From contig PYJE01000189.1 of the NCBI GenBank assembly GCA_003635305.1, positions 1 through 46,094 of the forward strand: a stretch of DNA of 46,094 nt, written 5' to 3'. The notes beneath the pieces were generated by a model, which did no database searches, was not told the DNA's origin, and saw only the letters and a program-made list of their open reading frames with translations. Every line of letters starts with the position of its first letter. Position 1 is the stretch's first letter. Positions 3,476-42,501 of the stretch are shown here, in pieces. This DNA comes from Candidatus Poribacteria bacterium. Lineage in GTDB: Bacteria > Poribacteria > WGA-4E > WGA-3G. The translations under genes and the position numbers were made by a program.

Positions 3476-3519
3476 GTTAATCCGTTTCGGGCTCGGGCGA
3501 GCCTGAACGCTAAATTAAC

Positions 3520-3590
3520 CGTGGGGCGAGGGACAGGCCCCCGCCATGCACCGAAATCCCGTAGGCGCGGTTTGAAACCGCGCCTACGGG
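3520..3590. repeat. R2 copy followed by a perfect R1 palindrome
   Basis: R2 lies at 3520-3549. R1 at 3558-3590 is the cleanest copy in the window: a 16-bp arm CCCGTAGGCGCGGTTT, one central G, and the exact reverse complement. It could form a strong hairpin in RNA. It sits in the 165-bp gap before a small membrane-protein gene. Confidence 0.9.
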
Positions 3591-4832: not shown

Positions 4833-5062
4833 TTTGCGAACGCAAGAGAACTAAATCGCTCTGTCCTCTGTAGGGCGAGGGCCTGTCCCTCGCCATGCCT
4901 GAAGTTTTTCTGGAATGTTCGCGTTTCCTTATAGAGAAACCAGATTTTCCAGTCTTGTTCTGTTTGCGAACGGAAGGGAGAACTAAATCGCTCTGTCCTC
5001 TGTAGGGCGAGGGCCTGTCCCTCGCCATGCCTGAAGTTTTTCCGGGACGTTCGCGTTTCCTT
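4833..5062. repeat. Direct duplication of a ~98-bp segment carrying R2
   Basis: Copy 1 (4833-4930) and copy 2 (4963-5062) share the order TTTGCGAACG, AACTAAATCGCTCTGTCC, R2 core, GCCTGAAGTTTTTC, GTTCGCGTTTCCTT with few differences. The ends TTTGCGAACG and GTTCGCG are partly complementary, so each copy can fold back around its R2 core. This looks like a larger mobile-type repeat with R2 at its centre. The 312-bp gap 4827-5138 holds this and an R3 copy, and no gene. Confidence 0.85.
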
Positions 5063-22128: not shown

Positions 22129-23283
22129 CTACCGGAACGTTTTCGCCGCCTGCACAAAATGTTTGACGTTTTCAAACGGTGTGTCTCTATGCAACCCGTG
22201 GCTGAGGTTCAGAATGTGCCCCGTTTTTCCACCTTGTCTTAGGCAGTCGTGGACAGCCGTTGTGATGTCAGCGAAGGTGCCATCGCGGAGGATGTCGTTG
22301 TCGACGTTCCCCTGAAAAGCGATGGGATTCTCTGCCGTTTCAGCCCTCGCTTGTGCGAGGTTCACGCATTTCCCGACGCTCAGCACGTCGGCACCGCTTT
22401 GATGCATCAAATCAAGTTCCGCGCACTCTTTTGCGAATAGAATCGCGGGGACACTTCGGTTGAGTTCGGCGAAAATTTGCTGATGATACGGCAACACGAA
22501 CTCTTGATACATTGCCCGCGGCATCACATCGGCGATGGACTCGAACAACTGGACTGTCTGAACGCCCTCGGCGATTTGGTAGTTCAGATAATTGATAGTG
22601 GCATCGGTTAAACGGGAGAGCAGTTGATGCGCCAGTTTCGGTGACTCGGTGAGCATCTGAAACACCACTTTTGCCGGAGGCGGCACGGAAGCGGGATTAC
22701 AAACCGCGCCTACCGGTGTTAATTCGGAACCCTGTTTCATAGGACTTGTGCCGGCGATGAGAAACGCGGCGAGTGTCATCGGCGCGCCTGCGAAGCCGAT
22801 GAGCGGCAGCTCTCCATCCAACGTTTCTCGCAGTGTGCGGATAACCTTTCCCGTGAAAGCCAGTTGTGTGGGCGCGTCGTTGAGAGGTTGAAGTGCTTCC
22901 ACCTGCTCACGGCTACGGATAGGTTCACTGAGAACCGGACCGGGGGTAAACCGAAAATGCGCGCCCATCGGGCATAGCGGCGTAAGGATGTCTTTGTAGA
23001 CGATAATTGCGTCTACACCGATGCGCTTCGGCAACAACGAGATTTTGACTGCCCATTCCACGGCGGTATCTGACATCGGAACGGGACAGGTGCGGAAGAG
23101 GTGCTCCAGCGGCAGATTTATCTCCTCTCGGATGCGGCGATACCCCGGGTCTGAGCGGCCTGCCTGTCTCATCATCCAGACAGGCACTCTATCGACAGGT
23201 AAGCGGCGTGCGGCGCGCAAAATCCGGTCATTTTTTAACGGCGGTATCGGTGTTGCGAGTGATGTTCGTTCTTTCTTGAGCAT
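22129..23283 (-). CDS. hemE: Uroporphyrinogen decarboxylase with repeat-derived insert
   Basis: This 384-residue cytosolic enzyme takes four carboxyl groups off uroporphyrinogen III. PVWMMRQAGR (residues 34-43) carries the catalytic arginine region, VYKDILTP the substrate loop, LIGFAGAPMTLAAFLI the next strand, and ILNLSHGLHRDTPFENV the end. It is longer than usual (about 340-355). Part of the excess is TPVGAVCNPAS at residues 189-199, which is exactly what the R1 repeat encodes, placed in the loop after AFLIAGTS. The frame is kept and all catalytic motifs remain, so the enzyme is probably active. It starts 9 bp after the LamG gene's stop. Confidence 0.93.
   Translation of the reverse strand: MLKKERTSLATPIPPLKNDRILRAARRLPVDRVPVWMMRQAGRSDPGYRRIREEINLPLEHLFRTCPVPMSDTAVEWAVKISLLPKRIGVDAIIVYKDILTPLCPMGAHFRFTPGPVLSEPIRSREQVEALQPLNDAPTQLAFTGKVIRTLRETLDGELPLIGFAGAPMTLAAFLIAGTSPMKQGSELTPVGAVCNPASVPPPAKVVFQMLTESPKLAHQLLSRLTDATINYLNYQIAEGVQTVQLFESIADVMPRAMYQEFVLPYHQQIFAELNRSVPAILFAKECAELDLMHQSGADVLSVGKCVNLAQARAETAENPIAFQGNVDNDILRDGTFADITTAVHDCLRQGGKTGHILNLSHGLHRDTPFENVKHFVQAAKTFR
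22691..22717. repeat. R1 repeat inside hemE
   Basis: GCGGGATTACAAACCGCGCC plus TACCGGT matches the R1 family (one arm and centre, with the other arm decayed) and is translated in frame on the minus strand as TPVGAVCNP. Confidence 0.9.
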
Positions 23284-35864: not shown

Positions 35865-35886
35865 ATTTTTTATCCAGAGCCATTCT

Positions 35887-36013
35887 GGAGCAGGATTTTC
35901 AGGATCTGGAGCAGGATTTTCAGGATTTTCAAGATTTCCAGGATTTAAGTGCTGCTTTGCTTGCTGGCCATTTTTGAGCAGGATTTTCAAGATGTTCAAG
36001 ATTTTCAGGATGA
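35887..36013. repeat. Short direct repeats, GGAGCAGGATTTTCAGGAT type
   Basis: GAGCAGGATTTTCAGGAT occurs twice (35887 and 35908) and partly again at 35976-36013, with shorter GGATTTTC and TTCAAGAT units between. With the R3 copy at 36050 it accounts for most of the 450-bp gap between the foldase and glycosylase genes. The open frames over it (35784-36149, minus) are repeat products (NPENPAPD, LKILNILKIL) and not genes. Confidence 0.85.
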
Positions 36014-38936: not shown

Positions 38937-39120
38937 ATCGCCAACGGCGATGACGGGTTACGCAGAAAAACGTCCTCGCACCGGAGATGTCCGCCGAACG
39001 CCTTGCGAACAACAAAAAATCGCCAACGGCGATGACGGGTTACGAAGAGAAACGTCCTCGCACCGGGAATGTCCGCCGAACGCCTTGCGAACAACAAAAA
39101 CGTCTTGCGAACAACAAAAA
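38937..39120. repeat. Two 82-bp tandem repeats and a partial third
   Basis: Units start with ATCGCCAACGGCGATGACGG at 38937 and 39019. Each ends in CCTTGCGAACAACAAAAA. A 20-bp piece (CGTCTTGCGAACAACAAAAA) follows at 39101. ATCGCC/GGCGAT forms a hairpin at the head of each unit. A related unit overlaps the start of the transporter gene at 42520-42600. There are no unique spacers, so it is not CRISPR. Confidence 0.85.
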
Positions 39121-39318: not shown

Positions 39319-39345
39319 ACCGAACTATCCATTTTGAAGGCAAAT

Positions 39346-42300
39346 ATGAACACCTCCACTCCGGAACTTGAACGATGCCTCTCCGATGCGCTTGAGGGGG
39401 AAGTCCGGTTCGACCGGTATTCCAGAGCACTCTACAGCACGGATGCCAGTCTCTACCAGATGCAACCGATCGGTGTTGTCATTCCAAAGCATCGACAGGA
39501 CGTTATCACAACGGTGCAAATCGCCGCTGAGCGCGATGTGCCGATTTTGCCGCGCGGCGGCGGCACAAGCCTCGCGGGACAGAGCGTCGGCGAGGCGATT
39601 GTGCTAGATATGTCCAAATATATGAACGCGCTCCTTGAGGTAAACGTTGCGGCGCAGTGGGCGCGCGTGCAACCCGGTATCGTGCTGGACGAGTTGAACC
39701 ACCGCCTCAAACCGCACGGGCTGATGTATGCTCCCGATGTCGCCACCAGTAGTCGCGCAAACGTCGGCGGCACCATCGGAAATAACTCCGCGGGCTCGCA
39801 TTCCCTCATCTACGGAAAAACGATCGACCATGTGATGTCGCTTGACTTAGTGCTTTCTAATGCTGATGAGATAACGGCCTCCCCGATATCACTGACGGAG
39901 TTGGCGGCAAAACAGCAGGGCGATTCGTTAGAGGCAAACATCTATCGCGAGCTCTGCCGCATTTGCGACGAAAACGCCGATGAAATTCGGAAGAGATACC
40001 CGCGCATCCTGCGCCGCGTCGCCGGCTATAACCTTGACGAGTTTGTCCCGAACGCTGGTTCTAAAGAGGTAACCCCTTATCGGCGAGATGGGTGCGATGC
40101 AGAGCATCCCTTTAGTCTGACGAAGATTCTCGTCGGTTCTGAAGGCACGCTTGCCACCACCGTTGAGGCGGCAGTGAACCTCGTCCCCGTGCCAAAAATG
40201 ACGGCACTCTGTGTCGTGCATTTTGAGACGCTCGTCGCTTCCATGGAGGCGATGCAGCCCATCTTGGCCTGTGAACCGACAGCGGTGGAGCTTATTGACA
40301 AAACGATACTTGACATGACGCGCGGTTCATTGGAGTTTTCACGGGTTACCACCTTTATCCAGGGAGAACCGGCGGCACTCCTCGCCGTGGAATTCTATGG
40401 AGAATCGGCGGCGGAACTGCACGCGCAGTTAGATAGGCTTGAGAAGACGTTGAAGAGCGCGGGATTCGGTTATGCATTCGTGCGGTGTTTGACGGCAGAA
40501 GAAAAAGCGCGCGTCTGGGAGACCCGGAAGGCAGGGCTCGGTTTGCTGATGGGGATGAAGGGGGATGCGAAGCCGGTGGGCTTCGTGGAAGATGCCGCCG
40601 TGCCGATTGAAAACCTTCCCGAGTACGTCCGTCGCTTTGAGGAGATTGTCACTGCGCACGATACGACAGCCGCCTATTACGCGCACGCTAGCGTTGGGCT
40701 GCTGCACAACCGGCCGATTGTGAACCTGAAGTCCGAGGCAGACATCCAGAAAATGCACAGCATTGCGCGCGAAGTGCGCGACCTGCTCCTGGAGCTCGAT
40801 GGCGCGATGAGCGGTGAGCATGGCGATGGACTCGTCCGAAGCGAGTGGCTTGAGAGTATGTTCGGCGCGCAGATTTACCACGCACTCCGCGAGGTGAAAA
40901 ACGCCTTCGACCCGGGTGGTATCATGAATCCCGGCAAAATCATCGATGCGCCGCCGATGACAGAAAACCTCCGATTCGGGCCGAAATACAACACTATTGA
41001 CATTGATACCTACTACGATTTCTCAAGTCAAGATGGATTCGGCGGCGCGATTGAGATGTGCAACGGAGTCGGTGCGTGCAGAAAAACGCTCACTGGCACG
41101 ATGTGTCCCTCCTTCATCGGTACTCGCGAAGAGGAGCATTCGACGCGCGGGCGCGCAAACGCGCTTCGTTCCGTTATTTCGGGTGCTTTGCCGCACACCG
41201 AATTCACCAGTGAGCGGCTCTACGAGGTGCTTGATTTATGCCTCGGGTGCAAGGCGTGCAAGGCGGAGTGCCCGTCTAATGTAGATATGGCGAAGATTAA
41301 GTATGAGGTGTTGGCGCATTACCACAAAGCGAATGGTTTGCCGTTGCATCGTCGGATGTTCGGGGAGATTGCCGTGCTGGCTCCGTTCGGTTCGGCGTTC
41401 GCGCCTTTTTCTAATTGGGCGGTGAACAATGCTCTGGCGAAATGGCTCGCCGAGAAATTGCTGGGTGTAGATAGACGGCGGGAAATGCCGACGTTTGTGC
41501 GGCCGACTTTCACGCAGTGGTTTCGTAAGACATCGAAAGCGCGCTTACAAAGCGCGCCTACCGGGGGGCGTGGTTTCCCCCAAGGCGCGCCTCTCGGTAG
41601 GCACGATGTCCAACAAAGCGCGTCTCCTGGAAGTCGCGATATCCAACAAGGCGCGCCTCCTGGGAGTGGTGGTTCCCAACAAGGTGAGCCTCTCGGTAGT
41701 GGCGATGTCCCCCAAGTCGCGCCTCTCGGTAGGCGCGGTTTGCAACCGCGCAACGGAAGCGCGGCCACTAACCGCACTGTGGTGTTATTTGCCGATACGT
41801 TCATGAACTACAGCGAGCCCGCCATCGGCAAGGCGGCTGTTGAGGTTTTGGAAGCGTTAGGGTTCACCGTTATCTTACCAAATAAGCGGTGTTGCGGCCG
41901 CCCGCTGATTTCAGAAGGCATGCTGGATAGGGCCATCGAGAACGCGCGTTACAACATCGCCTCGCTCAGCCAATATGCCGACGAAGGCGTGCCGATTATT
42001 GGGTGTGAACCGAGTTGCACCTCCGCGCTCACTGATGATTACGTTGAGCTCGTCAACACGCCGGCGGCGAAACGCGTCGCGGAGGCCACTTGTTCGTTTG
42101 AAGAATTCATCGCGCAGTTAGATGAACGCGGACAAGTGTCCCTTGAGTTTACGGAGGAAGCACGCGACGTTTTGCTACACGCGCACTGCCACCAACGCGC
42201 CCTTGTCGGCATCCAACCGACGGTGCAGATGCTCAGTTTACCGCCCGGGCACAATGTCACAGTGATTGATTCAAGTTGCTGTGGGATGGCAGGCGGGTTC

Positions 42301-42501
42301 GGTTATGAGAAGGCGCATTACGAACTCTCTCTGAAAATCGGCGAACTGCGGCTTTTCCCAACCGTCCGTGAAAAATTGGCGGACGGTGTAACGCTCACTG
42401 CCCCCGGTTTCTCCTGTCGGCATCAGTTGGAACACGCCACCGGTGTGCTGCCGAAGCACCCCATTGAAGTATTCCGCGAGGCGATGCGTTTGCCGAATTA
42501 G
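39346..42501 (+). CDS. Fused FAD-linked oxidase and Fe-S subunit (GlcD/GlcF-like D-2-hydroxyacid dehydrogenase)
   Basis: This is a 1051-residue two-part enzyme. The N-terminal FAD-binding domain has PRGGGTSLAGQSVG and ANVGGTIGNNSAG. The FAD-oxidase C-terminal cap follows (SGEHGDGLVRSEW). A ferredoxin-type domain has CNGVGACRK and CLGCKACKAECP. Two CCG domains close the protein (CCGRPLIS, HCHQRAL, SSCCGMAGGFGYE). It fits large D-lactate/glycolate-type dehydrogenases that pass electrons to quinone. A 74-residue spacer (about 731-804) between ferredoxin and CCG parts is coded by a tandem expansion of R1 and looks unstructured. ATG 39346 was preferred to TTG 39334. It leads the transporter and PhyH genes. 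Confidence 0.85.
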   Translation: MNTSTPELERCLSDALEGEVRFDRYSRALYSTDASLYQMQPIGVVIPKHRQDVITTVQIAAERDVPILPRGGGTSLAGQSVGEAIVLDMSKYMNALLEVNVAAQWARVQPGIVLDELNHRLKPHGLMYAPDVATSSRANVGGTIGNNSAGSHSLIYGKTIDHVMSLDLVLSNADEITASPISLTELAAKQQGDSLEANIYRELCRICDENADEIRKRYPRILRRVAGYNLDEFVPNAGSKEVTPYRRDGCDAEHPFSLTKILVGSEGTLATTVEAAVNLVPVPKMTALCVVHFETLVASMEAMQPILACEPTAVELIDKTILDMTRGSLEFSRVTTFIQGEPAALLAVEFYGESAAELHAQLDRLEKTLKSAGFGYAFVRCLTAEEKARVWETRKAGLGLLMGMKGDAKPVGFVEDAAVPIENLPEYVRRFEEIVTAHDTTAAYYAHASVGLLHNRPIVNLKSEADIQKMHSIAREVRDLLLELDGAMSGEHGDGLVRSEWLESMFGAQIYHALREVKNAFDPGGIMNPGKIIDAPPMTENLRFGPKYNTIDIDTYYDFSSQDGFGGAIEMCNGVGACRKTLTGTMCPSFIGTREEEHSTRGRANALRSVISGALPHTEFTSERLYEVLDLCLGCKACKAECPSNVDMAKIKYEVLAHYHKANGLPLHRRMFGEIAVLAPFGSAFAPFSNWAVNNALAKWLAEKLLGVDRRREMPTFVRPTFTQWFRKTSKARLQSAPTGGRGFPQGAPLGRHDVQQSASPGSRDIQQGAPPGSGGSQQGEPLGSGDVPQVAPLGRRGLQPRNGSAATNRTVVLFADTFMNYSEPAIGKAAVEVLEALGFTVILPNKRCCGRPLISEGMLDRAIENARYNIASLSQYADEGVPIIGCEPSCTSALTDDYVELVNTPAAKRVAEATCSFEEFIAQLDERGQVSLEFTEEARDVLLHAHCHQRALVGIQPTVQMLSLPPGHNVTVIDSSCCGMAGGFGYEKAHYELSLKIGELRLFPTVREKLADGVTLTAPGFSCRHQLEHATGVLPKHPIEVFREAMRLPN
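41537..41756. repeat. In-frame 33-bp tandem repeats derived from R1, inside the oxidoreductase gene
   Basis: Five complete 33-bp units (41570, 41603, 41636, 41669, 41702) lie between an R1-like start (AAAGCGCGCTTACAAAGCGC) and an R1-like end (GCGGTTTGCAACCGCGCAAC). A unit codes for 11 residues, such as GFPQGAPLGR, HDVQQSASPGS and RDIQQGAPPGS. Neither strand has stops in several frames. The frame is preserved throughout. Confidence 0.95.

Follow-up and report, generated by a model that had tools for sequence, protein, structure and literature searches.

A tandem array of GTAG-tagged REP elements as the probable source of an in-frame, predicted disordered linker in a YdiJ-like oxidoreductase of a Candidatus Poribacteria bacterium

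Introduction

Intragenic, in-frame REPs of the GTAG and CGTC types were described in 2013 (Di Nocera et al., PMC3733652), and REP clusters encoding 43-82 aa are known from Thauera and Rickettsia conorii, where they were suggested to serve as flexible linkers or loops (PMC3733652). REPs have been linked to RAYT proteins (PMC2817692). Two other kinds of repeat are comparable. The Rickettsia palindromic elements (RPE) are short palindromic repeats that lie in frame within many unrelated proteins; RPE-4 and RPE-6 belong to the CGTC superfamily (PMC3733652), and RPE-1 is longer. PARCEL repeats (Roske et al., 2010, PMC2996958) are palindromic tandem DNA read as variable-number protein repeats, with 25-residue amphipathic units in open reading frames without assigned function.

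The repeat described here, R1, occurs in a Candidatus Poribacteria bacterium (assembly GCA_003635305.1) and was studied from a window of 46,094 nucleotides, the whole of contig PYJE01000189.1. As in the REP-decorated proteins of Di Nocera et al. (PMC3733652), GTAG-tagged palindromes here lie in frame in genes whose proteins are known, in many cases as dimers or clusters. It differs from the RPEs in its GTAG tag, in having RAYT relatives in the phylum and in forming tandem arrays, and from the PARCELs in that its units are 11 residues long, predicted to be disordered and located within known enzymes. Our literature search found no description of REPs or palindromic repeats in Poribacteria, and the phylum is not named in PMC3733652. 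In-frame intragenic REPs as such are already known; what appears to be new, and sets this case apart from those described, is the phylum, the number of core enzymes involved, the regular 33-bp tandem array of diverged units, and two kdsB haplotypes that differ in unit number.

Results and Discussion

The host gene (39334..42501, plus strand) encodes a protein of 1055 aa whose Pfam domains (FAD_binding_4, FAD-oxidase_C, Fer4_8/17 and CCG) identify it as a YdiJ-like, FAD/Fe-S fused oxidoreductase of the D-2-hydroxyacid dehydrogenase type. The listed start codon is TTG, and an ATG is found at residue 5. The Fer4 region spans residues 573-650 and the CCG domain residues 824-899, and the array lies in frame between them. 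The order FAD - Fer4 - CCG in one chain is shared with the YdiJ, GlcD-GlcF and GlpC-type FAD and Fe-S hydroxyacid dehydrogenases. In contrast to these enzymes, the host protein scores below the equivalog cut-off of the NCBIfam YdiJ model (624.7 bits against 1350), and only the window copy has an expanded Fer4-CCG linker. By this score the protein would have the YdiJ architecture only and would fall outside the YdiJ D-2-hydroxyglutarate dehydrogenases. Just upstream of the gene, at 38937-39120, is a near-identical 82-bp tandem duplication that ends in AACGCCTTGCGAACAACAAAAA.

The array (41533-41755) is made up of seven R1-derived copies, five units and two end copies. The first end copy (41533..41562, minus strand) is read S-K-A-R-L-Q-S-A-P-T, and 28-29 bp of it recur unchanged in R1 copies at other sites of the genome; the last (41728..41755, plus strand) is a near-perfect R1 read G-R-R-G-L-Q-P-R-N. 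Between them, register analysis placed five abutting 33-bp units (41563..41727, plus strand), which are diverged R1 copies of 11 codons each, start at 41563, 41596, 41629, 41662 and 41695, and share the same codon phase. Tandem Repeats Finder reported a period of 33 with 4.8 copies and no indels (41581-41737), and the self-match of 0.71 at lag 33 exceeded the highest value (0.42) that 5000 shuffles gave at any lag from 10 to 59. Taken singly, six of the seven copies matched R1 better than shuffled sequences did, the exception being the unit at 41662-41694 (p = 0.13). A preliminary description of this DNA had proposed five 33-bp tandem units with R1-like ends, in frame between Fer4 and CCG; register analysis, Tandem Repeats Finder and Pfam all bore this out. 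The protein repeat, given there as 10-11 residues, is present with a length of 11. The gene uses a hydrophilic frame of the array. Of the other two forward frames, one has stops, and the second is open and more hydrophobic in composition. Openness of the frame was considered as evidence for coding and set aside as weak, since this second same-strand frame and an antisense ORF are also stop-free.

The expanded interdomain linker lies between ...TQWFRK and VVLF (41530..41781, plus strand; 83-84 aa). From WFRK to VVLF it measures 83 residues in the window and 15 in the same-genus relative; three further Poribacteria that were measured have 10, and it is about 10 residues long in other Poribacteria homologues. 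The length of 74 residues first proposed thus holds approximately for the repeat-derived part (about 73 residues) and not for the WFRK-VVLF linker as a whole. The insert is missing from all of about 85 homologues, drawn from Poribacteria and other phyla, in which the linker is short. When aligned with the DNA of the same-genus relative, the array appears as one block insertion with matching flanks on both sides (85-86% identical); the locus was compared with this one other genome of the genus, which lacks the array, so the contrast is one of presence and absence between species only. The Fer4-CCG site varies naturally in length among homologues, with a longer stretch in, for example, the Latescibacterota homologue L106, which indicates that the site tolerates insertion. 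On these comparisons the array appears to be an intragenic REP, in frame in the gene of a known protein and without counterpart in its homologues.

An AlphaFold model built from a 29-sequence alignment had a mean pLDDT of 83.4 and a pTM of 0.82. The flanking domains scored high. Between a helix (726-740) and a strand (814-819), pLDDT dropped to less than 50 across residues 740-812, which is partly expected because no row of the alignment covers the insert. The linker is predicted to be disordered, and its composition (G16, Q10, P10, S9, A8 and R8 of 83 residues) also fits disorder.

The open reading frame contains no stop, frameshift or N, and the CCG half retains its invariant cysteines. In a relative-rate count with G005 as the outgroup, the CCG half had 14 unique changes in the window and 15 in the same-genus relative, and dN/dS was 0.06 upstream of the insert and 0.195 downstream. 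These counts and ratios reveal no visible loss of constraint on the downstream domain from the insert, and by this sequence comparison the CCG half is still under constraint.

R1 has the form GTAGGCGCGsTTTnnAAsCGCGC, which makes a hairpin that leaves the GTAG tag unpaired, and occurs as singles, head/tail (alternating) pairs and clusters (L051, L055, L056). With at most one mismatch, the pattern matched 910 and 896 times on the two strands of the genome that holds the window, with symmetrical copies counted on both strands, against 1 and 0 for a reversed control; R1 is thus scattered about a thousand times through the genome. The same-genus relative has 252 and 284 matches; counts per strand do not exceed 40 elsewhere in the family, or 12 in genomes beyond it. 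With its short hairpin, tag, high copy number and mainly intergenic position, R1 is a member of the GTAG-tagged REP superfamily, whose description it matches (PMC3733652). Y1 transposases (RAYT) were present in 22 of the 25 genomes searched, and GTAG hairpins of the R1 design flank RAYT genes in relatives (L170, L257, L258, L259, L261, L262 and L273), on both sides in, for example, L170 and L258. The REPs at these genes include close R1 variants (GTAGGTGCGG... and GTAGGCGCGCTCGG...). No RAYT was found in the genome of the window, whose assembly is 87% complete, so that loss of the gene and an assembly gap are not separable. In the same-genus relative (G001) a RAYT gene is surrounded by densely clustered copies of a third GTAG repeat, R3 (GTAGGAGnGACnTCCCGGTCTCGATGTCCC; L160), and degraded RAYT pieces are present at other sites. 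With R1 recognized as a GTAG-tagged REP, the site empty in all other homologues and the gene constrained, the proposal that a mobile-type repeat has given rise to new protein sequence is supported.

R1 copies within other genes were surveyed in 1.26 Mb of the same genome, a sample enriched for R1-rich contigs and not random. Copies were counted at two mismatches or fewer and taken as genic when they lay inside an ORF of at least 150 aa and at least 50 codons from either end; weak single matches (four mismatches or fewer) in long ORFs include chance hits. ORF interiors held 73 of 606 copies, where about 371 were expected by area. R1 is strongly depleted in genes, though many copies survive there. 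Among neighbouring copies of the same orientation, the spacing was divisible by three in 20 of 24 genic pairs and in 29 of 109 pairs outside ORFs (Fisher p = 3.5e-7). The reading frame was also biased: the reverse frame, A-R-[LF]-x-[ST]-A-P-T, was used at 33 of the 73 sites, and at six of seven sites in a 0.4-Mb sample of the same-genus relative.

Some of the surveyed ORFs may be spurious, and the named cases therefore rest on Pfam matches. Inserts backed in this way were found in hemE, tgt, a dihydrolipoamide-dehydrogenase-like protein, thiE, kdsB, a copA-type P-ATPase, two M28 peptidases, cytochrome b and a glycosyltransferase. The linker, treated as a single event in the preliminary description, is instead one among many REP insertions in the proteome. 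The thiE, kdsB and hemE genes of relatives do not have the R1 insert. In hemE (uroporphyrinogen decarboxylase, ORF 22132-23283, minus strand) R1 lies in frame at 22687..22713 (minus strand) and encodes the peptide VGAVCNPAS, and the orthologue of the same-genus relative is 11 residues shorter. The thiE gene (L207:18350-19108, minus strand) carries an R1 array of about 50-60 residues within the TMP synthase domain, which relatives are without, and in the heavy-metal P-type ATPase gene (L244:6449-8848, minus strand) two sites in the Hydrolase domain region carry R1-derived inserts. A further ORF, L218:19354-19998, encodes EQDFQDFQD directly ahead of an R1 peptide; this may be the same repeat as the short tandem repeats of the CAGGATTTT type at 35879-36011 of the window.

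The kdsB gene is present in two copies (L195:13090-14037 and L195:10312-10953) on opposite sides of an N run in contig C166. Over 932 bases the copies share 93% identity. The ARLQSAPT-type and VGAV-type units number three and two in one copy and two and three in the other, in frame in both. They likely represent two haplotypes, either of two strains joined by the scaffolder or of a duplication. Read at the sequence level, the pair shows an in-frame change of unit number in an enzyme-internal R1 array. The length variation that the preliminary description thought probable for the YdiJ-like linker is thus seen in an array of the same kind, in kdsB.

We consider it highly probable that the R1 array became an in-frame, disordered linker of the enzyme and is mainly tolerated there. 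R1 would be a non-autonomous hairpin repeat, probably spread by RAYT, that landed in the insertion-tolerant interdomain linker of the YdiJ-like gene, presumably by RAYT-driven insertion. Its copies may then have multiplied, probably through replication slippage or unequal recombination, in steps of 33 bp (11 codons), by which the frame would have been kept. The middle units would later have diverged, most of them losing the hairpin, and the Fer4 region would now be joined to the CCG electron-transfer domain by about 73 unstructured residues rich in G, P, Q and S. Selection would have acted mainly as a filter that retains the frame and a hydrophilic peptide, and the array would have persisted because the frame was kept and the peptide stayed soluble. 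The extra length is probably near neutral, which we take as the default reading. This account is supported by the match of the units to R1, the lack of the insert in relatives, the open frame, the downstream constraint, the predicted disorder and the association of R1-type REPs with RAYT genes in relatives. Counted against it are that no RAYT was found in the genome itself, that insertion and amplification are inferred steps, and that the linker gives no positive sign of selection.

An adaptive linker would be a long flexible tether that alters the reach of the CCG domain to the Fe-S/FAD part or to a membrane partner, with unit number tuned as at a contingency locus. The linker may serve as such a longer tether between Fe-S modules, and this is in keeping with an array maintained in frame in exact 33-bp units and placed exactly between electron-transfer modules, as well as with the in-frame change of unit number between the kdsB haplotypes. 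We regard it as unlikely, because R1 also occurs in the unrelated hemE, tgt, thiE, kdsB and copA, which speaks for tolerance and not for a specific use, and all other Poribacteria manage with about 10 residues. Nor was there a signal of selection on the linker sequence when differences between units were sorted by codon position: they are near even over the three positions (52/61/69), so the exact sequence seems little constrained.

The array might alternatively work as DNA or RNA, through mRNA hairpins, by slowing ribosomes or making the message more stable, or through gyrase/IHF-type sites, with the peptide as a by-product. Such roles are known for REPs (PMC3733652), and the fold of the whole array, at -109 kcal/mol, is more stable than mononucleotide shuffles (-87 +/- 5 kcal/mol). 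Near-perfect hairpins are found in the end copies (-13 to -14 kcal/mol), and middle unit 1 (41563-41595) retains a long hairpin (-17.5 kcal/mol). Against this, the regular hairpin is gone from the other four middle units (-7 to -10 kcal/mol) and the array is not conserved across species, which makes a function at this level very improbable.

That the array was put in by the assembler or by a mixture of strains, or that the gene is being lost, is the least credible explanation: the assembly is of the metagenome type (213 contigs, 4% contamination) and elsewhere has two kdsB haplotypes flanking a scaffold gap, but the units are so divergent (longest exact repeat 17 bp) that short reads would assemble, N is absent, both flanks match the same-genus relative, the domains are intact and constrained, and there are many parallel insertions in other genes. 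The chimera or broken frame that the preliminary description had allowed for is accordingly not favoured.

Taken as a mainly tolerated REP array, the linker fits a range of stages at which mobile-type DNA repeats become protein: single R1 peptides in hemE and tgt, short arrays in kdsB, thiE and copA, and the long diverged array of the YdiJ-like linker. Since stages of R1 insertion coexist with empty sites in close relatives, the origin of new loops and linkers becomes directly testable. A broader reading, which we offer tentatively and hold to be rather doubtful, is that REP arrays are a standing source of new in-frame segments, with dozens of core enzymes carrying R1-derived loops or linkers, in-frame turnover of units within the population, and some of the segments put to use. 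If true, it would mean genome-wide, length-variable disordered segments from REP arrays in this lineage. A practical warning follows for annotation: recurring Poribacteria peptides such as ARLQSAPT are REP translations and not conserved motifs.

The window also contains a second GTAG-type palindrome (GTAGGGCGAGGGCCTGTCCCTCGC) at 212-255, 1182-1225, 2212-2437, 3510-3553 and 4859-5034, which forms a 46-bp tandem array at 2259-2437.
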